A stretch of DNA of 48,910 nt, from contig WFNF01000099.1 in the NCBI GenBank assembly GCA_015488775.1, positions 1-48,910 on the forward strand. Reading direction: 5' to 3'. A program made the position numbers and the translations under genes. The notes under the pieces were generated by a model. It was not told the origin of the DNA. It did no database searches and saw nothing but the letters and a program-made list of their open reading frames with translations. The first letter of the stretch is position 1; each line of letters opens with the position of its first letter. Below, piece by piece: positions 2,025 to 13,589 of the stretch. The DNA comes from Helicobacteraceae bacterium. GTDB lineage: Bacteria; Campylobacterota; Campylobacteria; Campylobacterales; Sulfurimonadaceae.

Positions 2025-5000
2025 ATGAAACTTAATTCTAAAATGCTTTCAGTTGCTGCTGCAACTATATTGGTTGCTTCAATGACAGGTTGTGAGAGTA
2101 CTAGTACTAGTGCTGCACAAAGTACAACAGGTGCAACTGCGCAACACATCACTAACCCAAAAGGTAGTGTAACAGGTACAGTTCAAGATACAAATGGTAA
2201 TCCACTATCTGGTGTTAAAGTTTACCTTGCTGGTAAAGAAACAACTACAGATGCAGGTGGTGTTTATAATTTCGCTGATGTTCCAGTTACTAGCGTTGGT
2301 GCAACAGGAACACAAACTGGACAAGCTGTATCTATAACGATAGCTGCACCAGAAGGTTATGTAGGAGCAACTGTTACAGTAACTCCAATGGCACAAATTG
2401 ATAATGCTGAGAATGGTTCTACAAATGCTGTAGAAACTTTTGTAGATGGTTTTATGGCTAGTGCAGGTACTGCTGTTCTTCCACAAACAAATTCAACTGT
2501 TACTGGTACATTAAGAGATAATACAACTGGTGAACTTATAGCTAGTCAAGAAGTTACTTTTGAATTTATAAATGGTGGATCAGCAAATACAACTGCACAA
2601 GAGCAAACTCAAAATGGTGTAAATACATCTTACGCAGTAAGTAAATACACTATTACAACAGATGCATCTGGTAAATTCAGCTTTGCTTCACTTCCAACAG
2701 ATTCATCTTTTAAAGTTTTAATTCCTGGTTACACAACAAACAGCATCAATACTAACAATACTACTACATTCACTTCAAATGCTGAAGATATAATTGCACT
2801 TGGAAATGTAAAAGCTACAGCTATTACTGCTCTAGACAATATAAATCCTTATGTTGATAGTGTAGATAATACTATAGCTGTTAATGCTGGTCGTGCTACC
2901 TTAGATGATGATACTCGTAAATCATTCGTAGTTAACTTCTCTGAAACTTTAGATGCTAGTAAACTTGAACTTGCTGGAAACTCTGTACTTCTTTATACAG
3001 GTGATGCTACAAATGGATTGAGTGCTGATACAGGTGCAACAGCAACTATTGATACAAAAAATAAAACTATAACAGTAACAACATCTAAAACACTTACTGA
3101 TGGTGACTTAGTTGATATATTATTTTTAAATGCAGATGTACAAGATACAGCAGCAAACAACCTTGATTTAAGTGCTACTATAGCTTTTGATTCAACAGTA
3201 AACAACTACACAAAACTAGAACTAAAAATATTTGAAGAAGCTAATACTAATGCAACTCAAGTAAGTGCAGCTACTCAATTAACTAAAGATAATCTTGGTG
3301 TAGATGATGATGAGGCTATCCAAGCTAAATCTAATGCATTTAATGATGTTTTAGATGAAACAGCAGGCTTCCAACAACTAAATACTGCAGATGATGATGA
3401 TAATACTAATGGAATAGATGCACAAGAGAGACTTAATGCACTAGCAGTAGCTTTAGGGGCAAATAGTGTAAATGTTTCTAAATCTCGCATAAGTTTTACA
3501 CCATCTAACGCTTACCAATACAAAATAAGTGTTGAAGATAAAGCTGGTAATGCAAAAAATCAATCTAATGTAACAAATGTTGCAAATGCAACAACAAGTA
3601 ATGTTACTGTAGATAATGACTTTGGTGGTACAAATACAGCTACAATCAGTGTTTCTGATGCAAATAGTGTTGAAGTTTATTTATCAAATGTTGCACCAAG
3701 TGATGTTGTTACAATCACTCCAATTGATTCTTTAAATTATGTTGGAACAGCTGCAACTATTACTTTAGCTGACAATGTAGCACCTACAACTATCTTACAA
3801 AAATCTTACTTTGCAGGTAATGCAACTTCAGGTGAAGACTCTTCAAACACTGTAGTACAATTTGGTGATGGTGGTGAATTAGCTGATGCTAATGGTGCCT
3901 TAACAATTGGTACACCATATTTAGTTATAAACAACTCACTTCTTGATAATGAAGATGGAAATGGTGAAACAGTATCTACTGGTGTTAATCCAAATAAAAA
4001 ACTTACTACAGAACTATACAATCTAAGTGTAGTTGATGAAAATGGTACAAAGAAAATATATTTAGATGGACAAAAAGCATATGATGCACAAGCAGTTGCA
4101 GCATTTAATGTAGATGCTAAACTATCTCGTAAAATGGGTGTTGCTTTCTCTGAAGATTTAGCTACAACTGGAACTCCTGTATTTAATGGATCTACAAGTA
4201 TAACTAACTATACAATCAATAATGATGTAACTAAAAATGTAAATGGATCTACTGTTAATGCAGACTTAATAGATATGGATGTAGCTAATGTTATGAGTTT
4301 AGCTAATAGTGACAACTTAAAAACTATCACTTATACTGGTGTAACTGATAGCGCTGGTAATGCAGCAACTTCAGCTACAAACGCTGTAGTAGTTGTTAAA
4401 GATGAGATGGCACCTATAGTTTTAAAGGCAACATATACTGAAGCAACAGGCGATGTGGTTATAACGTTTAATGAACCAATCAAATTAACAGATAGTGCTG
4501 CAGCTCCAGCAGTAAATAGTAAAGTGGCTTTTGGTGGTGTAACAGCTACATACAACTCAAATGCAACAAGTAATCAATGGAGTTTAGATGCTACTAAGAA
4601 AGTGCTAACTATTCCACAAGCTGCATTTATAGGTGCGATTAATAAACGTTCAAACTGGACTGATGCAACATACGCGTACTACACAAATAATGAGTATGGT
4701 TTAGGTGTTACAACAGATGTAAATCACTTAGTATTAGACTATAGTGCGATCTCTGATACTCAAGATAATAGTTGGGATTCATATGCGACTAAAACAACAA
4801 CAAGAGCTGTAGAAGCTCCTAACTTTGCAGTAGCTGAAATACCAACTGTATTTGGTGCAAATACACCAACATTCGGTACAACAAACACCATTTCTAATAC
4901 ACAAGAAGTTAAATGGATCTTTTCACAACCAATTAGAATAGATAATGGAAGTGATATCTTTAATGGTGTTACACCAACAGCATCTGGTGATTATATCTTA

Positions 5001-5285
5001 GATGGAAATACTCCAGCTGATTTAACAAAAATCCAGGCTGCTTTTGAGGGTGTTATAGATCCAAGTAATGCAAATACTTCTGATCCATTAACAAATAATG
5101 CAGGTGATCCAACTACATTAACTTTAAGTGCTGACATGAAAACATTAACGCTTAGATTTAGAACTACAACTGATTTAACAAGTACAAATGGTGATATTAT
5201 TCGCTTAAATACTAAATCTATAGTATCTGATGGTGATACTGATCAAGTACTATCTAACAATGGTGTTACTGCGACAGCTAACTAA
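2025..5285 (+). CDS. large Ig-like-domain lipoprotein (1086 aa)
   Basis: A secreted lipoprotein: signal peptide with lipobox ASMTGC (Cys about residue 23). Next is a carboxypeptidase-regulatory-like fold (GSVTGTVQDTNGNPLSGVKV, about 48-115), a second copy of the same kind (TVTGTLRDNTTGELIA, about 158-260), then a long series of bacterial Ig-like (Big_5/SbsA type) modules. These are marked by repeated strands FSETLD, FSEDLA, FNEPIKL and FSQPIRI, and by D-x-AGN turns such as VEDKAGNAKN and TDSAGNAAT. Composition is Thr/Asn/Ala/Asp rich with acidic clusters (DDDD) that may bind calcium. No enzymatic motif and no C-terminal anchor are seen, so it is likely a structural, adhesive or matrix protein held by its lipid. 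Well placed AAGGAG precedes the ATG. It heads a five-gene same-strand run, but a hairpin terminator follows it. Confidence 0.75.
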   Translation: MKLNSKMLSVAAATILVASMTGCESTSTSAAQSTTGATAQHITNPKGSVTGTVQDTNGNPLSGVKVYLAGKETTTDAGGVYNFADVPVTSVGATGTQTGQAVSITIAAPEGYVGATVTVTPMAQIDNAENGSTNAVETFVDGFMASAGTAVLPQTNSTVTGTLRDNTTGELIASQEVTFEFINGGSANTTAQEQTQNGVNTSYAVSKYTITTDASGKFSFASLPTDSSFKVLIPGYTTNSINTNNTTTFTSNAEDIIALGNVKATAITALDNINPYVDSVDNTIAVNAGRATLDDDTRKSFVVNFSETLDASKLELAGNSVLLYTGDATNGLSADTGATATIDTKNKTITVTTSKTLTDGDLVDILFLNADVQDTAANNLDLSATIAFDSTVNNYTKLELKIFEEANTNATQVSAATQLTKDNLGVDDDEAIQAKSNAFNDVLDETAGFQQLNTADDDDNTNGIDAQERLNALAVALGANSVNVSKSRISFTPSNAYQYKISVEDKAGNAKNQSNVTNVANATTSNVTVDNDFGGTNTATISVSDANSVEVYLSNVAPSDVVTITPIDSLNYVGTAATITLADNVAPTTILQKSYFAGNATSGEDSSNTVVQFGDGGELADANGALTIGTPYLVINNSLLDNEDGNGETVSTGVNPNKKLTTELYNLSVVDENGTKKIYLDGQKAYDAQAVAAFNVDAKLSRKMGVAFSEDLATTGTPVFNGSTSITNYTINNDVTKNVNGSTVNADLIDMDVANVMSLANSDNLKTITYTGVTDSAGNAATSATNAVVVVKDEMAPIVLKATYTEATGDVVITFNEPIKLTDSAAAPAVNSKVAFGGVTATYNSNATSNQWSLDATKKVLTIPQAAFIGAINKRSNWTDATYAYYTNNEYGLGVTTDVNHLVLDYSAISDTQDNSWDSYATKTTTRAVEAPNFAVAEIPTVFGANTPTFGTTNTISNTQEVKWIFSQPIRIDNGSDIFNGVTPTASGDYILDGNTPADLTKIQAAFEGVIDPSNANTSDPLTNNAGDPTTLTLSADMKTLTLRFRTTTDLTSTNGDIIRLNTKSIVSDGDTDQVLSNNGVTATAN

Positions 5286-5297
5286 TTTTTACTAAAG

Positions 5298-5319
5298 TCT
5301 TAGTGCTTATGCACTAAGA
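5298..5319 (+). terminator. hairpin terminator after the large lipoprotein gene
   Basis: TCTTAGTGC (5298-5306), loop TTAT, GCACTAAGA (5311-5319): a perfect 9-base stem, extendable by a G-U and two A-U pairs into the following TTT. It lies 13 bases after the TAA and should at least attenuate transcription into the next lipoprotein gene. Confidence 0.7.
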
Positions 5320-5388
5320 TTTGTGTAAAAGTTTATCTATAAGCTAAAATACTTTTATAAAAATATCTGTTTTTTATTTAACATTGTT

Positions 5389-5394
5389 TATACT
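5389..5394 (+). promoter_or_regulatory. candidate -10 of the second lipoprotein gene
   Basis: TATACT 30 bases before the ATG at 5424, immediately preceded by TTTAACATTGTT (5377-5388), a 12-mer that recurs upstream of the PAS gene at 33252-33263. Confidence 0.4.
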
Positions 5395-5423
5395 ATGACT
5401 TTATTACTAAAAAGGTTACAAAT

Positions 5424-7226
5424 ATGTATAAAACTATATTACTACTTTTCTCTTTAGTGTTTTTGGCCTGTGATTCAAACACAGACATTCAAAATGGAAC
5501 AAGTGAAACTACAAAAAAATTACCAAAATTTTCAGCATCATTTTCTAAACGTTCATTAAAAACCCCCATAAACTCAGCCATAACTTTTAGTTTTTCTAAA
5601 GATATTGATATGACATCTTTATATTATTACGATAGTACACTAGATGTCTATGTTTATGGAATTGAACTTTATAAACAAGAAAATGATGGTAACTTTACTA
5701 AAATAAGTTTTGATGAGATAGAAGTACTAAAACCATATAAAGAGTTTGCAATGTACAATAAAGCTTACTTTGATGCAAACTCAACATATAAAGTTATCTT
5801 AGAAGATAGTATAAAAACATTAGATGGTGTAGAACTTGGCGTAGATGTAAGTTATACTTTTAGTACAGGAGACAACATAGACTTTACTCCACCAGAAGTT
5901 GTTCATATATCACCATCACAAGTTAGTTTTAACGGGGTTACAGAAGCTGATTCTAAAACTCAAGTAAGTGTAGTTTTTGATGAACCTATACTTCAAAATA
6001 ACCCAAAGTTTATTTTAAAAGATCAAAATCAAAATACTATACTTGGCAAATTTACCTATGGAAATAGATCTATAAACTTTAAGCCAAATAACAATTTAGT
6101 TGCATCAAACACCTATAAAGTATATTTTACAAATCAAGTTCAAGACCTTAGTCAAAATTACAGCCAAATTGATTTAAACAACCCTCAACACACGTTTAGT
6201 GTAGTCAATATAAATAATCAAAATAACCATAGTCTTTTGTATTCAGATACAAACAGCTCATACACAACTTTTGAAGCAAATCAAACAACTTTAATGATTC
6301 CACATGAAACAAACACATCAAGTACAATTGATTATGGACTACTAATTAAAAACTACACTGCAGATTATAATCAATCAAGTAATGAAATTGAAAATTTTAG
6401 ATTTGATGATGAAAATTCAAGTTATATCTCCATACTAAAACAAGACATACATAACTTAAATTACCAAAAAATAGAAAATTCTAAAATAACTAAAATAATA
6501 TATAAAGATCCTTATATATTTTTAATTACTAAAGCAGATGGATTTTATATAATACAGAACAACAAGATAATAAATCATACAAGTTTGAACTTACAAATTT
6601 CAGATATTTATTATGATCAAGAAACTAGACTTATCTATGTTGGAACATTAAGTGATGGCATATATGAATACTCTTTAAATTCAAACACACCAAGGCTAAT
6701 CAAAAAGATAACAGAAGCTACACCAACTTACGCACTCACATCTTACAGTGGTTTTTTATATATCGCTCAAGGTTTAGAGGGGGTAGCTAGTTATGATATG
6801 TCTACAGATTCTAACTATACAAAACTTGATTATGGGACTTTATTTGCTCATGATATAGAGGCTTTTAGCGATGGTAATAGTGCCAAAAGTGTAGTTATTA
6901 GTGATGCACAAGCTGGTGTTAGAGTGATGAATGAGGGAAATCTTGATAGCTATGATACATTAAGTTATGCTTACTCTGTTCAATATATAAACTATGATAG
7001 TACCTTTGTTCTTGGGGTAGTAGATGTAAAAAATGGCTTTAAAATGTATTCAGCTTACGATACATCAAACCTACCCTCATACTCAACTTATGAAAATACA
7101 AATTTTACTGCTACAAATAGTGACTTAATTGAAGCTAAATATACACATATACCACTTATAAGTACAGCAATAGTATTTATGTTAAACAATCAACATGAAC
7201 TTATTGTTGTAAGTGATGGTTACTAA
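5424..7226 (+). CDS. Ig-like plus beta-propeller lipoprotein (600 aa)
   Basis: The signal peptide ends in lipobox VFLAC (Cys about residue 16) followed by Asp. Two Big_5-type Ig-like modules come first: one around FSFSKDIDMTSL (about 40-150) ending in YTFSTGDN, and one around VVFDEPILQN (about 155-265) with the NTYKVYFTNQVQDLSQN closing strand. The C-terminal half (about 330-600) has repeated four-stranded blades such as KADGFYIIQNNKI, TLSDGIYEYSLN and GLEGVASYDMS, resembling LVIVD-type propellers. Eight D/E-x-N-x-S/T sequons (the extended PglB N-glycosylation signal) lie between residues about 85 and 490. The stop is 2 bases from the next reading frame, so it is surely cotranscribed with the TPR/barrel gene. 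Function unknown; a surface or periplasmic binding protein is likely. Confidence 0.7.
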   Translation: MYKTILLLFSLVFLACDSNTDIQNGTSETTKKLPKFSASFSKRSLKTPINSAITFSFSKDIDMTSLYYYDSTLDVYVYGIELYKQENDGNFTKISFDEIEVLKPYKEFAMYNKAYFDANSTYKVILEDSIKTLDGVELGVDVSYTFSTGDNIDFTPPEVVHISPSQVSFNGVTEADSKTQVSVVFDEPILQNNPKFILKDQNQNTILGKFTYGNRSINFKPNNNLVASNTYKVYFTNQVQDLSQNYSQIDLNNPQHTFSVVNINNQNNHSLLYSDTNSSYTTFEANQTTLMIPHETNTSSTIDYGLLIKNYTADYNQSSNEIENFRFDDENSSYISILKQDIHNLNYQKIENSKITKIIYKDPYIFLITKADGFYIIQNNKIINHTSLNLQISDIYYDQETRLIYVGTLSDGIYEYSLNSNTPRLIKKITEATPTYALTSYSGFLYIAQGLEGVASYDMSTDSNYTKLDYGTLFAHDIEAFSDGNSAKSVVISDAQAGVRVMNEGNLDSYDTLSYAYSVQYINYDSTFVLGVVDVKNGFKMYSAYDTSNLPSYSTYENTNFTATNSDLIEAKYTHIPLISTAIVFMLNNQHELIVVSDGY

Positions 7227-7234
7227 GGATGATT

Positions 7235-8527
7235 TTGAAAAAACTACTACTACTTGTTATATTATTAAACACTCTACATGCTTCTACTTATGGCGAGGCA
7301 CTTATCTCTTTTAATAAAAAAGATTATGAGGGCACTATACAACTGTTGCAAAATGACACAAGTTCGTTTACAGATATAGACTCCCAAATCCTTTGGGCAA
7401 GAGCTGAAAAAAACCTATCACATGAACCACTAGCTATGAGTGCATACGAAAGAGTTTTAATGCTAGATGAAAGCAATATTGAAGCTTCACTATACTTAGC
7501 AAAAATATATAAAAAACAAGGTTTATACACACAAAGTAAACATCTAGTAAAAAATCTAAATAACTATCAACTATCTCCATCCCAAAGAAGCGCAGTAGCA
7601 GCACTTCTGAATAGTTCAGATAATATCAATAAATTTAGAGAAAATGCAAATATAAACATAGGTTATGATACAAATGTAAATGTAAATGCAGGTGCTGGAA
7701 ACCTTGATAACTTCTATAACGATATAGGTATAGGCGGAGTTAGTACTGATGGTGTCATCTCAACACTTTTTGTATCATATGGTGTAAATCTTAGTTACTT
7801 AAATGAGTTAGGTAGTAAAAATGGTTTTTATATGCAAGGTGATATAAACTTATATGGACAAAACAACTTTGAAGATAAGGCAAAAAGATACAACACATAC
7901 TTTGGCAAAGGATCTTTAGGTCTAGGTTATAAGTTTTCAAAAAACACTTTATATATACCAATATCTTATGATAGATTAAACTATTTGAAAAAAGATTTAC
8001 TGCAAACATACTCTATAAATCCCATATTAAACACAGTTTTAAATAAAAACTTTTTAAGTTCATTAAAAATTTTATATAAAAAAAGGGCATACATAGAAAA
8101 AGTTGATCAAAACCGTGATGATAATGAGTATGGGGTGGATGAAACTATCTATGCGATATATCATAAAAATTTCATTTACCTAAAACTTGGTGCAGACTCA
8201 TTTATAGCTTCTAAAACCAATCCTGTCTCATATACAGATAAAAATTTATTTAATTTTGGTTCTGGTCTGAACTATGTTATAGCATCTAATCATATAATAA
8301 GTTTAGATTATAGATTTAGATTTGCACTTTTTAAAGATAAGGTTTCAATAAACAACTTAAATCCAAGAAGAGATATCTTTAACAATATATCTTTATCTTA
8401 CAATACAGTGTTTTTTAAATTTTTACAAACAAACTTAAGTTATTCATATACAAATAATATGTCTAACTATATCCCAGCAGCTTATGCTAAAAATGTTGTA
8501 AGTTTTGGCTTACAATACAACTATTAA
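7235..8527 (+). CDS. TPR plus outer-membrane beta-barrel protein, Slam-like
   Basis: I choose the TTG at 7235 rather than the ATG at 7229: AAGGA (7225-7229) is then 5 bases upstream, exactly the spacing used by the next gene, while for the ATG the Shine-Dalgarno would overlap the codon. The product (430 residues) has a signal peptide (MKKLLLLVILLNTLHAS), a TPR-like helical region (about 15-115; SFNKKDYEGTIQLL, AMSAYERVLMLDESNIEASL, AKIYKKQGLY) and then a C-terminal half of amphipathic strands starting NINIGYDTNVNVN and ending FGLQYNY with an aromatic last residue. This architecture is that of surface lipoprotein assembly modulators (Slam, DUF560), outer membrane proteins that help lipoproteins reach the cell surface. 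Two lipoproteins are encoded just upstream, which fits, but homology to Slam is my inference. Confidence 0.65.
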   Translation: MKKLLLLVILLNTLHASTYGEALISFNKKDYEGTIQLLQNDTSSFTDIDSQILWARAEKNLSHEPLAMSAYERVLMLDESNIEASLYLAKIYKKQGLYTQSKHLVKNLNNYQLSPSQRSAVAALLNSSDNINKFRENANINIGYDTNVNVNAGAGNLDNFYNDIGIGGVSTDGVISTLFVSYGVNLSYLNELGSKNGFYMQGDINLYGQNNFEDKAKRYNTYFGKGSLGLGYKFSKNTLYIPISYDRLNYLKKDLLQTYSINPILNTVLNKNFLSSLKILYKKRAYIEKVDQNRDDNEYGVDETIYAIYHKNFIYLKLGADSFIASKTNPVSYTDKNLFNFGSGLNYVIASNHIISLDYRFRFALFKDKVSINNLNPRRDIFNNISLSYNTVFFKFLQTNLSYSYTNNMSNYIPAAYAKNVVSFGLQYNY

Positions 8528-8535
8528 GGATTTTT

Positions 8536-9357
8536 ATGAAAGCGATACTATTTATATTTTTTTTGACACTTAGCCTAGAGGCAAATATAGGAACAATAGC
8601 AGCACTAATTGGAGATGCTAAAATACATAGGGGCAAAACAAGTATTAAAGCTAATATTGGTGCTTATATAGATGAAAAAGATATTATAACCACGTCAAAA
8701 AGAACCAGAATTCAAGTTATACTTAAAGATAACACAATTATAACCATAGGACCAAAATCACAATTTGCTTTTAATGAGTATTCAAACTCAACAAAAAAAC
8801 CCAAGTTAAACTTTAGAATAAAAAGAGGTTTTTTTAAAGCTATAAGTGGAAAAATCGGAAAAATCGCACCCTCAAGATTTAAAATAAGAACAAGATCAGC
8901 AACTATTGGTATTAGAGGGACTGTTTTTATGGGTGAAATTGGTGAAGATAGTGAAAAGATAGCTTGTTTAAAAGGTGCTATAACAATTCAAACAGATTTA
9001 AAAACTTTTGATATACCAAAGGGTGATATGATAATCTTATCTAAAAATCAACCTCAACTTAAAAAATTAGATATAAAAGAGTTTAAAACATTAAAAGCTA
9101 AAAACAGTCATAATGATAAAAATATGCCAGCAACTTCATCAACAAACGATAAAGCATCGCAAGATGATTTATTGGCTAATCAAGCACAGCAAGAACTTAC
9201 AGATGAAATTGAGTCAACTTTAGAAGACGAGATGTCTGATAATACTGTTCCTGATATGTTAGAACATGGTGAGGAGTTAGACAAAGGATCTTTTTCAACA
9301 TCTAATGGTACTAAAACAAGAGGAGATGAGCAAGTTATAGTAGGACCAAATAACTGA
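8536..9357 (+). CDS. FecR-domain periplasmic protein
   Basis: The 273-residue product has a short signal peptide (MKAILFIFFLTLSLEA). Residues about 20-160 form a FecR-type beta-sandwich: GTIAALIGDAKIHRGK, a strand VILKDNTIITIGPKSQF, and the diagnostic RTRSATIGIRGTVFMGEI followed by CLKGAITIQT. The tail (about 195-273) is acidic, Ser/Thr/Gln rich and probably disordered. Unlike FecR of iron uptake, there is no N-terminal cytoplasmic anti-sigma part or transmembrane helix, so it acts wholly in the periplasm. FecR-only proteins are often encoded beside CHASE2 cyclases; here the stop TGA overlaps the cyclase ATG (TGATG at 9355-9359), implying translational coupling. A likely role is as a ligand-binding or sensing partner of that cyclase, by inference. 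Confidence 0.85.
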   Translation: MKAILFIFFLTLSLEANIGTIAALIGDAKIHRGKTSIKANIGAYIDEKDIITTSKRTRIQVILKDNTIITIGPKSQFAFNEYSNSTKKPKLNFRIKRGFFKAISGKIGKIAPSRFKIRTRSATIGIRGTVFMGEIGEDSEKIACLKGAITIQTDLKTFDIPKGDMIILSKNQPQLKKLDIKEFKTLKAKNSHNDKNMPATSSTNDKASQDDLLANQAQQELTDEIESTLEDEMSDNTVPDMLEHGEELDKGSFSTSNGTKTRGDEQVIVGPNN

Positions 9358-11507
9358 TGAAAAAGATGTACCTATATCAAATTATAAGTGCAATTATAAT
9401 TTTTATATCTATAGATTTTGCTTATATCGTTCCAAGTGAAAATATAAAAGCTTTTGATTCCAGATTAAGAGACTTTTTTTTTATAAGCCGTGGTGAGATT
9501 CCACACTCAAACAATATAGTTATAGTAGATATTGATGAAAAATCTTTAAAAGAGTTTGGTCAATGGCCTTGGTCAAGAGATGTTGTAGCAGAACTGTTAG
9601 CTAATCTCACAAATATGGGTGCTGGCATAATAGGGCTGGATATTATTTTTTCAGAATCAGATAAATCATCACCATCAAGCATAGCAAAAAAGATAGGTAT
9701 AGATAAAAATGAGCTTGAAGATTACGATAAAATTCTAGCAGATGTAATTGCACAAACACCAAGTATAGGTGGTTATTTTTTTGATATGGACAATCAAACA
9801 CAAGATGATATATTTTTAGCCCTAAAAGGTACTTTTATAGAGATAAATTCAAATAAGGATTCAAGTACAAATAAAAATTCTGCTCAAATTTTAAATGCAA
9901 AAGGTGTTCATACAAATATTGAAATTCTACAAGATAGTTTTTATAGTGTAGGCTTTCTAAACAACACTCCAGATAGCGCAGGCGTTGTAAGGCGTGTGCC
10001 ACTGATGATTAAATACCAAAATATTTTATATCCATCTTTAGCATTAGAAATGGTAAGAATATTTCAACAAACAGATGTAGTAAAGCTACACAATGAAGCT
10101 TATGATAGAGATAAAATTGAAGTTGGTAAGTTAAATATAATTACAGACGAAAATGCTAGGTTAATTGTAAATTTTAGAGGTCCCGCACACCATTTTCCAT
10201 ATATCAGTGCCAGTGACATACTTCATAATGATGTAAATATTAGTGATATAGAGGGGAAGTTTATACTTATAGGTACAAGCGCGGTTGGATTATCTGATCT
10301 AAAAGCTACCCCTTATGATTCTTTAATGCCAGGAGTTGAAATACATGCAAATGTTATAGATAACATACTGCAAGATGATTTTTTACAAATTCCTGAGGGA
10401 TCAGTAGCCTTAAATATTTTTATATTTCTTGGAATAATAATACTAGGCCTTATATTATTTACATTTTTAAGAGTTCAATATTCACTAATAAGTTTTATTA
10501 CTTTATCTTTTCTGCTTTACTACTTTTTATACTATATGTTATTTGAAAAATATATAGTTTTAAATATACTTTTTTCTTATTTAAGTCTAATTTTGATATA
10601 TCTAAGTAGCACCATCATAAACTTTGCCTTTATTACAAAAGCTCAAGAGGATATAAAAAAAGTTTTTGCAAAAAAAGTTTCTAAAGCAGTTATGGATGAT
10701 TTGGTTAATCACTCAGATCAAGCACTTTTAAAACCTAGAGATGAAGTTGTAAGTATATTTTTTAGTGATATTAGAGGCTTTACAAGTATATCTGAGAAGA
10801 TAGGTAATCCACATAGTCTTATAGAGCTTTTAAATATATATATGACACCTATGGTTAAAGAAATAGATAGTTCTGGTGGTACGATAGATAAATTTATAGG
10901 TGATGCTATAATGGCATATTGGAATGCCCCACTTAAGGTAAAAAATCATGCTGATAAAGCTCTAAAATCGGCTATAAATCAAATAAAAATTTTAAAAACA
11001 GTAAATAAAACACTAGAAGAAAAATATAATCTAAATTTAGATATAGGTATAGGTATAAACACAGGACAAGTAACTATTGGAGATATGGGGAGTGAGGGTA
11101 GGAGTGATTATACTATTATTGGTGATCAAGTTAATCTAGCATCAAGGTTAGAATCTCTAAATAAACTGTATGGTTCAAACATAATTATTTCAAAATTTAC
11201 AAAAGATGAACTAATAAACAATTACTTTATAAGACCACTCGACTTTGTAAAAGTAAAAGGTAAAAACCAAGCTGTAGAGATTTTTGAAGTTTTCACTTTT
11301 AAATCCCTATCTACTGATCAAATACCTAAATATAGGTATGCATTAAATTTATATAGACATAGAGAGTTCAATAAGGCAAGAATACTGTTTCAAAAATTAA
11401 ATGCTCAAAATAAATCTACACTTTATCAACTATATATAGATAGATGTGAAAAATATATTAAAAGTCCAAACAACTTTTCCATAGTTGAAACAATGACAAC
11501 AAAATAA
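9357..11507 (+). CDS. CHASE2-domain class III adenylate cyclase
   Basis: A 716-residue inner membrane receptor cyclase. One N-terminal helix (about 6-25) leads into a periplasmic CHASE2 sensor (about 28-340; IVIVDIDEKSLKEFGQWPWS is typical), followed by three transmembrane helices (about 350-430) and a class III cyclase domain (about 455-640). Metal-binding aspartates are present in FFSDIRGFTS and FIGDAIMAYW, the transition-state Asn and Arg in VNLASRLE, and the base-selecting pair is Lys (TIDKFIGD) and Thr (SDYTIIGD), the pattern of class IIIb adenylate rather than guanylate cyclases. All catalytic residues are intact, so cAMP synthesis is expected. A TPR-like tail follows (NLYRHREFNKARILFQ). 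Its TAA is directly adjacent to the stop of the convergent EAL gene. Confidence 0.92.
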   Translation: MKKMYLYQIISAIIIFISIDFAYIVPSENIKAFDSRLRDFFFISRGEIPHSNNIVIVDIDEKSLKEFGQWPWSRDVVAELLANLTNMGAGIIGLDIIFSESDKSSPSSIAKKIGIDKNELEDYDKILADVIAQTPSIGGYFFDMDNQTQDDIFLALKGTFIEINSNKDSSTNKNSAQILNAKGVHTNIEILQDSFYSVGFLNNTPDSAGVVRRVPLMIKYQNILYPSLALEMVRIFQQTDVVKLHNEAYDRDKIEVGKLNIITDENARLIVNFRGPAHHFPYISASDILHNDVNISDIEGKFILIGTSAVGLSDLKATPYDSLMPGVEIHANVIDNILQDDFLQIPEGSVALNIFIFLGIIILGLILFTFLRVQYSLISFITLSFLLYYFLYYMLFEKYIVLNILFSYLSLILIYLSSTIINFAFITKAQEDIKKVFAKKVSKAVMDDLVNHSDQALLKPRDEVVSIFFSDIRGFTSISEKIGNPHSLIELLNIYMTPMVKEIDSSGGTIDKFIGDAIMAYWNAPLKVKNHADKALKSAINQIKILKTVNKTLEEKYNLNLDIGIGINTGQVTIGDMGSEGRSDYTIIGDQVNLASRLESLNKLYGSNIIISKFTKDELINNYFIRPLDFVKVKGKNQAVEIFEVFTFKSLSTDQIPKYRYALNLYRHREFNKARILFQKLNAQNKSTLYQLYIDRCEKYIKSPNNFSIVETMTTK

Positions 11508-12755
11508 TTATATATCTAGGTAATCTAAAGCTATAGGTTTAGATATATAATTACCTTGTACAAAGTCGGTATTAAGTTGCTTAACCGTGTCATAAACCTC
11601 TTTGGAACAAACATACTCCGTAATTACTTTTATATTCATTGTTGAAGCTATGGCAATTATAGCTTTAACAACCTTTTGTGCATTTTCATCTTTGTCAATA
11701 TTTTTAATTAAAGAACCATCCAGTTTTATAAAATCAACTTGAAGTTTTAAAAGATACGCAAAATTTGAGTAACCAGTTCCAAAATCATCTATAGCAACCT
11801 TACAGCCAAGTTTCCTAATATGTTGTAAAAATCCATTAACACTTTTAGAGTTTTCTATCTCTATAGACTCTAAAATCTCAAAAGTTAATCTCTCAGCACA
11901 AGTTGAATTATTCAACATAGCTATAATATCACTTTTAGTTGTAGCATCTTTTAAGTCTTCATAACTCAAGTTTATAGAGAAAAAGCATTCAGGTAACTCT
12001 TCAGCTTTTTTTATAACATTTTTTACAACACAAGATGTAATCTTAAGATAAAGCCTAACAGATGAAGCAACATCCATAAACTCACAAGGTTGATATATCT
12101 TGTCACCTGCACCTTTTATTCTCACAAGTGCTTCATATTTTTTAAATGTACTGTCATTTAAATCTTGTATCTGCTGATAGTAACAAATCACTTTATTATT
12201 ATCTAAGGCATCTTCTAAGATTCGTAACATATCCAAATTTTTGCTTAAGTCAATAGCTTTATTGTTTGAGTTATAAAAATGATAATTTTTAGATGAAATT
12301 TTAGATAGTTTTAAAGCATCAAAAGCCATAACTAAACATGAACTTTTAATCTCATGTTCATCCTCAAGAACTGCACCAATACTTGCTCTTACTGATAGCT
12401 CTATATCATAACATTTAAGTTTAATTGGATTTACAAATGCTGAGAAAAGGACAACATCCTCTTTAAATGAGTTGGTGTCAACCATATCATCAACCAAAAC
12501 AGCAAAACTATCTCCACCTAGATGATACTTTTTAAACTTTAAATCTGAAAATGTTTGACTAATTTTATGTGCGAATTGTCTTATGATTTCATCACCAATT
12601 ATTTCAGAAAACATAGAATTAATATCAGAAAACTTATCTATATCTATAATCATCATCTTTTTAGAACTCATAGTATTCAAATCATCTATTAGCTCTAATC
12701 TATTTGGGAAGAAGGTAAGATTGTCTAGGGTACAGATAGTTTTTTCAATATTCAA
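11508..12755 (-). CDS. degenerate GGDEF plus EAL c-di-GMP phosphodiesterase
   Basis: A 415-residue soluble protein without signal peptide or membrane helices. The N-terminal GGDEF fold (about 25-165) has the signature changed to HLGGDSFAVL, so cyclase activity is unlikely. The EAL domain (about 175-415) keeps the catalytic set: YEALVRI, SINLS, FEILES, IDDFGTGYSN, DFIKLDGS, the Glu of VITEYV, and VQGNYISKP; hydrolysis of c-di-GMP to pGpG is therefore plausible, though VITEYV replaces the usual AEGVE. There is no sensory domain, so control must come by binding or by expression. The start lies 2 bases after the exbD stop, placing it at the end of the algC-pyrC-exbBD operon, and its stop touches that of the cAMP cyclase. 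Confidence 0.88.
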   Translation of the reverse strand: MNIEKTICTLDNLTFFPNRLELIDDLNTMSSKKMMIIDIDKFSDINSMFSEIIGDEIIRQFAHKISQTFSDLKFKKYHLGGDSFAVLVDDMVDTNSFKEDVVLFSAFVNPIKLKCYDIELSVRASIGAVLEDEHEIKSSCLVMAFDALKLSKISSKNYHFYNSNNKAIDLSKNLDMLRILEDALDNNKVICYYQQIQDLNDSTFKKYEALVRIKGAGDKIYQPCEFMDVASSVRLYLKITSCVVKNVIKKAEELPECFFSINLSYEDLKDATTKSDIIAMLNNSTCAERLTFEILESIEIENSKSVNGFLQHIRKLGCKVAIDDFGTGYSNFAYLLKLQVDFIKLDGSLIKNIDKDENAQKVVKAIIAIASTMNIKVITEYVCSKEVYDTVKQLNTDFVQGNYISKPIALDYLDI

Positions 12756-12757
12756 TT

Positions 12758-13135
12758 TTATTCCTTAGTAACTATAAAAAGTTGTTCATGGTTTAACTTT
12801 TTCAAAGTATCCATAACTAAAACAAAGTCTTGAAATTTAGACTCTTTATCACTTCTTAACACTATAGTTTGATCTTTTGGTACTTTAGCTAAAATATTCT
12901 CTAAATTTTCTTTATCTACCTCTTGTTTATCTATAAAAATTTTAGCATCTTTAGTTACATAGATATTAAAATCTTTTTTTTGCTCTTTTTTATCTGAACT
13001 TTTTGCATCAGGTAAATCAACAGGTATAACCCCCTGCTTTATAAAAGTAGCAGTAGTAATAACCATTACAAAAAGAACAAGCATGATGTCAATGAAAGGT
13101 ATAACGTTGATAGAATCAACTTTTTTCATTTTCAT
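12758..13135 (-). CDS. exbD: ExbD/TolR proton-channel subunit
   Basis: 125 residues: a short cytoplasmic N-terminus, one transmembrane helix carrying the channel aspartate (NVIPFIDIMLVLFVMVITTA, about 10-30), and a periplasmic ExbD/TolR domain (about 40-125) with the strands FNIYVTKDAKIFID and TIVLRSDKESKFQDFV. It couples proton flow through ExbB to TonB-dependent transport or, as TolR, to envelope integrity; the TonB homologue at 47403 is a possible partner. AGAGG 7 bases before the ATG overlaps the end of exbB, which lies 4 bases upstream. A generic ExbD, not assignable to Ton or Tol with certainty. Confidence 0.92.
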   Translation of the reverse strand: MKMKKVDSINVIPFIDIMLVLFVMVITTATFIKQGVIPVDLPDAKSSDKKEQKKDFNIYVTKDAKIFIDKQEVDKENLENILAKVPKDQTIVLRSDKESKFQDFVLVMDTLKKLNHEQLFIVTKE

Positions 13136-13139
13136 AAAA

Positions 13140-13589
13140 CTAACCTCTCTTTTTTATTGCATCTGCTTCATAATAGGTGATAATTTTTTCCATTTTTCTT
13201 AAAAGAATATTGTAAAATACTATAGATGGTATAGCAACAACAAGCCCCATAGCCGTTGCTTTAAGAGCCAGTGCTAAACCCATCATAATTTTTTTACTAT
13301 CAACACTACCAACATCTCCAAGAGTATAGAAAGTTATCATAATACCTAAAACAGTTCCAAGCAATCCAACATAAGGTGCATTTGATCCTATAGTAGCGAT
13401 AGTTGAAACATTATTTCCAAGATCTAATTCTAGAAGTTCTTTAGAGTCAAAATCTTCAAATTTTATAGTTTTATAATACATCAATCTCTCTATAAATAAC
13501 CATAAAGCAACAAAAGACATAAGTATTAAAGTTCCCATCACTCCATAATCAAGTGCTTTTTCTGCGTACTCGCTCCAATGTGATTGCAT
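13140..13589 (-). CDS. exbB: ExbB/TolQ/MotA-family proton-channel subunit
   Basis: 149 residues, typical of the short ExbB proteins of Campylobacterota. It has three transmembrane helices: MGTLILMSFVALWLFIERL (about 18-37), APYVGLLGTVLGIMITFYTL (about 70-90), and ALALKATAMGLVVAIPSIVF (about 105-125), the last two holding the conserved pore residues T and AxxATAxGL. It forms the pentameric scaffold around ExbD helices. The ATG overlaps the pyrC stop (TAATG), so translation is coupled to dihydroorotase, an odd but compact arrangement. Confidence 0.92.
   Translation of the reverse strand: MQSHWSEYAEKALDYGVMGTLILMSFVALWLFIERLMYYKTIKFEDFDSKELLELDLGNNVSTIATIGSNAPYVGLLGTVLGIMITFYTLGDVGSVDSKKIMMGLALALKATAMGLVVAIPSIVFYNILLRKMEKIITYYEADAIKKRG

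Follow-up and report, generated by a model that had tools for sequence, protein, structure and literature searches.

The window analyzed here is a stretch of 48,910 nucleotides (contig WFNF01000099.1, positions 1 to 48,910, assembly GCA_015488775.1) from a Helicobacteraceae bacterium of the phylum Campylobacterota, and its positions 2025 to 11507 contain five co-directional open reading frames on the plus strand, with intergenic spacings of 138, 2 and 8 bases followed by a 1-base overlap. The first two genes encode lipoproteins, namely LP1 (2025..5285; 1086 amino acids), a Thr/Asn-rich protein with a CarboxypepD_reg-like N-terminal region, and LP2 (5424..7226; 600 amino acids), which contains a Big_5 immunoglobulin (Ig)-like domain and a C-terminal half that looks propeller-like by eye. 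The next gene (7229..8527; 432 amino acids) encodes a predicted TPR-barrel protein, in which TPRs are combined with a 14-strand outer-membrane β-barrel of the SlipAM/DUF560 superfamily that includes the Slam proteins of Type XI secretion systems (T11SS). It is followed by a gene for a short FecR-domain protein (8536..9357; 273 amino acids) and a gene for a CHASE2 receptor adenylate cyclase (9357..11507; 716 amino acids) with a predicted transmembrane helix (residues 9-27), a periplasmic CHASE2 domain, 3-4 further transmembrane helices (residues 350-427) and a class III cyclase domain.

The start of the 138-base gap between LP1 and LP2 is filled by an A/T-rich, near-perfect terminator-like stem-loop on the plus strand (5284..5333; 51 nt, -24.5 kcal/mol, z-score -8.68 against 200 shuffled sequences, none of which folds as deep). 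Because this strong hairpin, probably a terminator, separates LP1 from LP2, we read LP1 as probably a transcription unit of its own and the remaining four genes (LP2, TPR-barrel, FecR and CHASE2 cyclase; 5424-11507) as a probable operon. An earlier, sequence-only reading of this DNA described a single locus of five same-strand genes, with spacings that never exceed 8 bases once position 5424 is reached; the strand and the spacing are as it described and a four-gene operon is probable, but LP1 probably does not belong to it. CRP-type sites showed no excess across the window and none adjoins the starts of the genes, a promoter scan gave matches no more frequent than in shuffled sequence, and an Rfam search returned no match.

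The barrel and its linked genes across Campylobacterota

A homology search with the cyclase yielded 80 related loci, and an alignment of 39 barrels, searched in 298 Campylobacterota genomes, recovered 38 barrels in 33 genomes, the neighborhoods of which were retrieved; merging the cyclase-based and barrel-based loci resulted in 79 non-redundant barrels. A FecR gene lies no more than two genes from the barrel in 74 of these 79, an association that is not due to chance, and a CHASE2 cyclase gene is present in the neighborhood of 63. In the barrel-centered set, FecR genes (32/37) are more frequent than CHASE2 genes (23/37), indicating that the barrel and FecR are the tighter pair. Viewed from the cyclase, the 42 well-flanked loci include 31 with FecR, 29 with the barrel, 28 with both and 10 with neither. 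In 60 linked triples, the correlations among the barrel, FecR and cyclase distance matrices are 0.79-0.82, compared with a permutation maximum below 0.1. FecR and CHASE2 genes do travel with the barrel, as had been proposed; the lipoproteins, discussed below, are lineage-specific.

The window barrel matches the SlipAM profile (PF04575) marginally, with 26.1 bits against a curated cut-off of 22, and shows weak TPR matches. Among the 39 members of its family, SlipAM is matched by 18 (best E-value 1.6e-14) and TPR_Slam by 7, and this family accounts for 20 of the 21 SlipAM matches found across the 298 genomes; a second SlipAM protein was not found in the genome of the window. An AlphaFold2 model of the window protein (mean predicted local distance difference test score, pLDDT, 89.7) consists of TPR helices (residues 33-127) followed by strands (residues 134-431) that number about 14 after one broken strand is joined, and the nearest solved folds are those of the monomeric porins CymA and OmpG; a PDB sequence search gave only TPR proteins among the matches listed. 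What defines a Slam protein is a TPR domain together with a DUF560 barrel predicted to have 14 strands (PMC5449769). On this combined sequence and model evidence, the "TPR protein" of a previously reported gene cluster of this kind (see below) is predicted to be a 14-strand barrel of the Slam/T11SS (DUF560) type, in agreement with the initial assignment of the window protein as a Slam-type TPR-barrel.

The cyclase of the window contains readily recognizable CHASE2 (E-value 2e-61) and class III cyclase (E-value 6e-23) domains. In class III cyclases, two aspartates (D471 and D516 in the window protein) bind metal, a lysine and a threonine (K512 and T586) determine the choice of adenine, and an asparagine and an arginine (N593 and R597) stabilize the transition state; all six positions are conserved across an alignment of 106 homologs, apart from a single replacement of Thr by Ser. 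Given that the periplasmic domain, the transmembrane helices and all catalytic residues, including the adenine-specific Lys and Thr, are in place, the protein is expected from its sequence to be an active adenylate cyclase that makes cyclic AMP (cAMP). The genome of the window encodes just one other class III cyclase, likewise with CHASE2, in a locus on another contig (C81; L083:3434-8113) that consists of genes for FecR, the CHASE2 adenylate cyclase, a GAF/HD-GYP protein and a class II cAMP phosphodiesterase of the metallo-β-lactamase fold; this FecR-cyclase pair comes without a barrel. Six proteins of the genome contain cNMP-binding domains and are possible receivers of cAMP. In relatives (L098 and L105), the GAF/HD-GYP and phosphodiesterase parts form one protein of 780-800 amino acids that combines cAMP and cyclic di-GMP hydrolase-type domains. 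In the window, a GGDEF-EAL gene (11508-13589) is convergent to the cyclase gene and abuts it; next come an ExbD/ExbB pair and a gene that is probably pyrC.

FecR tails and upstream lipoproteins

The FecR protein of the window (PF04773, E-value 2.5e-13) consists of a cleavable-type signal peptide, the FecR domain and a polar tail, with no anti-sigma domain, and no sigma factor gene is found among its immediate neighbors. The alignment of FecR proteins revealed that many relatives carry a long C-terminal extension with the motif GxFYGxxA...GGxF. Pfam searches with 20 of these tailed proteins identified TbpB_B_D in 15 (best E-value 1.1e-9) and the C-terminus of factor H binding protein in one. 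A model of the tailed FecR protein from locus L048 (overall pLDDT 63, about 70-85 within the two folded parts) comprises an N-terminal FecR fold, a disordered linker and eight strands (residues 371-490); the N-terminal part matches the structures of FecR-type anti-sigma domains and the C-terminal part those of NHBA and TbpB. A C-terminal barrel of this kind is the feature common to Slam/T11SS cargo (PMC8406197, PMC12282271). As an unbiased check on the association of FecR tails with the barrel, TbpB_B_D was searched in the 298 genomes. Of the 21 matches, 19 have a barrel of this family no more than 4 kb away, against a chance expectation of about 0.01. Most FecR partners of the barrel are accordingly predicted, by sequence and by model, to end in a TbpB-like 8-strand domain typical of Slam/T11SS cargo, and in most relatives it is probably the FecR protein itself that serves the barrel as cargo or partner.

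In L122 (3394-6326), an OmpA/Pal-like lipoprotein with a terminal TbpB_B_D barrel is encoded directly 5' of a family barrel, with no FecR gene, so that the two are candidates for a simple T11SS pair within Campylobacterota. In L126 (5609-10400; genome G209), a barrel whose SlipAM score is the strongest (6e-26) adjoins a 1165-amino acid protein, the reading frame of which holds the strongest TbpB_B_D match (7.9e-16), a candidate T11SS with a new type of cargo. In L105 (2208-7538), L123 (3480-7610), L031 (3273-7505) and L047 (6546-10697), the barrel-FecR pair is followed by a very large exported protein (1377-1777 amino acids) that is rich in surface-type repeats and is possible further cargo. 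L007, L014, L015, L022 and L080 each have two FecR genes, placed on either side of the barrel or ahead of it, with a complete barrel-FecR duplication in L022. An apparent 1088-amino acid FecR-CHASE2 fusion in L041, first taken as Rosetta-stone evidence, was rejected as a frameshift artefact, its junction being an out-of-frame Ala-rich repeat.

Both LP1 and LP2 start with a signal peptide and a lipobox (MTGC and FLAC, respectively). The sequence-only reading had taken both for Ig-like lipoproteins, which holds for LP2 (Big_5, E-value 5e-14); LP1 is a lipoprotein as well, but yields only a sub-threshold carboxypeptidase-regulatory-like match and no match to any Ig family. An LP1 homolog adjoins the cassette in L003 only, with no other among the 298 genomes, and an LP2-type gene occupies the same position in L003, L004, L008, L013 and L018. 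Such genes are found 5' of the barrel mainly in the clade of the window, indicating from gene distribution that the lipoproteins are lineage-specific rather than core parts of the cassette. TbpB_B_D was detected neither in LP1, LP2 and the window FecR nor anywhere else in the genome of the window; because LP1 and LP2 lack the C-terminal barrel carried by known Slam cargo, we regard their display by the barrel as no more than a possibility. Automatic lipobox matches in L051, L062 and L064 proved false, being the N-termini of PDEase_II-type proteins or of the cyclase, and were excluded. In L121 (2249-17503; related genome G060), four Big_5 lipoproteins surround a 1032-amino acid DUF11-TPR-barrel fusion and a FecR gene, with no cyclase.

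In the barrel tree, the window falls within a supported 18-member clade in which all FecR proteins are short (213-280 amino acids) and an Ig-like or similar lipoprotein gene is located directly 5' of the barrel in about half of the members (the window, L003, L008, L013, L018, L026 and L029, with L004 and L028 cut by contig ends); many loci of the clade lack it. Upstream LP2-type lipoproteins are present at 0 of 29 tailed loci and at 10 of 36 tail-less loci (Fisher p 0.0015), an anticorrelation that is not significant in a tree-aware pairs test and essentially represents one clade or event. The pattern would fit an exchange of cargo, with LP2 as a candidate cargo here.

A possible relay from the outer membrane to cAMP

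The reading that we favor, and consider moderately probable, is that genes 5424-11507 encode a trans-envelope relay that turns an event at the outer-membrane barrel into cAMP. The TPR-barrel would reside in the outer membrane, the TPR part facing the periplasm, FecR would act in the periplasm, and the CHASE2 protein would make cAMP at the inner membrane. If cargo engaged or passed through the barrel, or a ligand bound from outside, in the window genome perhaps by way of LP2, what FecR presents to CHASE2 would change and cyclase activity would be set accordingly. We favor this relay because of the computed barrel-FecR-cyclase linkage, the barrel model, the intact catalytic residues and the TbpB/NHBA-like tails of the FecR proteins, and because of the architecture of NsrA, the outer-membrane receptor on which Sinorhizobium meliloti depends, along with the cyclase CyaK, to perceive a signal (PMC7529298). 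Linkage, the types of barrel and FecR protein and the intact cyclase active site are computational results; direct contacts, the direction of the signal and a role of LP2 as cargo or co-receptor are inferred. Several observations weigh against the relay. A cyclase is missing from the vicinity of some barrel-FecR pairs, and among the 42 well-flanked CHASE2 cyclases 10 are accompanied by neither a barrel nor a FecR gene; the distance correlations show co-inheritance, not contact, and could be explained by co-inheritance alone; and no homology was detected between the NsrA barrel and that of the window, so that the precedent is architectural only.

A stronger form of the relay, which we regard as possible but doubtful, is that the barrel acts as a genuine T11SS translocon and that CHASE2 detects whether its cargo stays in the periplasm or is exported, in which case the ancestral cargo would be the FecR-TbpB_B_D protein, and LP2 would have become the cargo in the clade of the window, where FecR lacks the tail. 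The SlipAM score above the cut-off in the window and the near-confinement of SlipAM to this barrel family, the TbpB_B_D matches and TbpB/NHBA folds of the FecR tails, the pairing of the barrel with other TbpB_B_D proteins in L122 and L126, the restriction of directly upstream LP2-type lipoproteins to tail-less loci and the four Big_5 lipoproteins around the barrel-FecR pair of L121 all point in this direction, but the cargo domain is missing from LP1, LP2 and the whole genome of the window, and the anticorrelation of tail and lipoprotein comes down to essentially one clade. In its full form, with FecR serving a Slam-type translocon as cargo or plug by way of its TbpB-like tail, the CHASE2 cyclase reporting the state of the translocon as cAMP, and an Ig-like lipoprotein taking over the cargo role in the clade of the window, the scheme is offered tentatively and is rather unlikely.

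About equally doubtful is that the barrel acts only as a porin-like receptor of some small molecule or peptide, in the way that NsrA receives a plant signal, with the lipoproteins as unrelated surface proteins co-transcribed by chance. Such a role would be in line with the NsrA precedent and with the missing upstream lipoprotein at many loci of the same clade, but not with the 2-base spacing between LP2 and the barrel, the recurrence of an LP2-type gene in that position in several species and the tie of the barrel family to a T11SS cargo domain. That FecR and CHASE2 by themselves make up an entire sensor in the periplasm, with the barrel and lipoprotein as passengers, is improbable because, despite the barrel-less second FecR-CHASE2 pair of the same genome, the barrel is linked more strongly to FecR than to the cyclase.

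Under the relay, then, this gene set of a marine-type bacterium is one in which an event at an export-type outer-membrane pore probably raises intracellular cAMP. If the relay is real, CHASE2 receptors, the natural inputs of which are largely unknown, would gain a concrete outer-membrane partner, the Slam/T11SS family would have a signaling role beyond cargo export, FecR-TbpB_B_D proteins would be candidate cargo of T11SS barrels in bacteria that are not associated with animals, and surface display would be linked to cAMP in a phylum where cAMP signaling has hardly been studied.

Comparison with known systems

The sequence-only reading knew of no described system with this full composition, a claim that finds no support. 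A Campylobacterota cluster that joins a CHASE2 adenylate cyclase to a phosphodiesterase, FecR and a TPR protein was reported in 2022, and its authors proposed that these form one pathway (PMC9239204). The two share the phylum and the side-by-side CHASE2 cyclase, FecR and TPR protein; the window locus lacks the phosphodiesterase gene, which is present in the second CHASE2 locus of the genome. The core cluster and, in part, the relay idea are therefore already in print, and the idea in its earlier form was reasonable and partly anticipated. In its accessible text, the report speaks of a TPR-domain protein only, without naming a Slam-type barrel, and mentions neither TbpB-like FecR tails nor lipoproteins; in the literature as far as it was accessible, we did not find a description of the barrel type, the tails or the variant with a short FecR and an upstream Ig-like lipoprotein.

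The experimental precedent is NsrA-CyaK (PMC7529298, PMC13001267). A gene in an S. meliloti replicon, very likely nsrA judging from its size, barrel position and neighborhood, encodes 1190 amino acids with FecR at residues 66-160, many TPRs up to about residue 590 and then a barrel, and lies immediately 5' of a CHASE2 cyclase gene. FecR, TPR and outer-membrane barrel thus precede a CHASE2 adenylate cyclase in both systems, but in NsrA they are fused in one chain, the barrel is about twice as large as that encoded in the window, and there is no lipoprotein. With Slam/T11SS (DUF560; PMC5449769, PMC8406197, PMC12282271), the window protein shares the TPR N-domain and the predicted 14-strand barrel, and most of its relatives also have TbpB_B_D neighbors, whereas the genome of the window lacks cargo with this C-terminal barrel; the accessible parts of the T11SS surveys mention no FecR, cyclase, CHASE2 or Campylobacterota. 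In a Burkholderia operon (PMC5192318), a FecR-LysM protein similarly adjoins a CHASE2 receptor, but the output is a histidine kinase rather than a cyclase and there is no barrel. Compared with FecIRA cell-surface signaling, the window locus has no sigma factor, anti-sigma domain or TonB-dependent receptor, but the two are alike in a FecR-family periplasmic domain and an outer-membrane barrel as the input.

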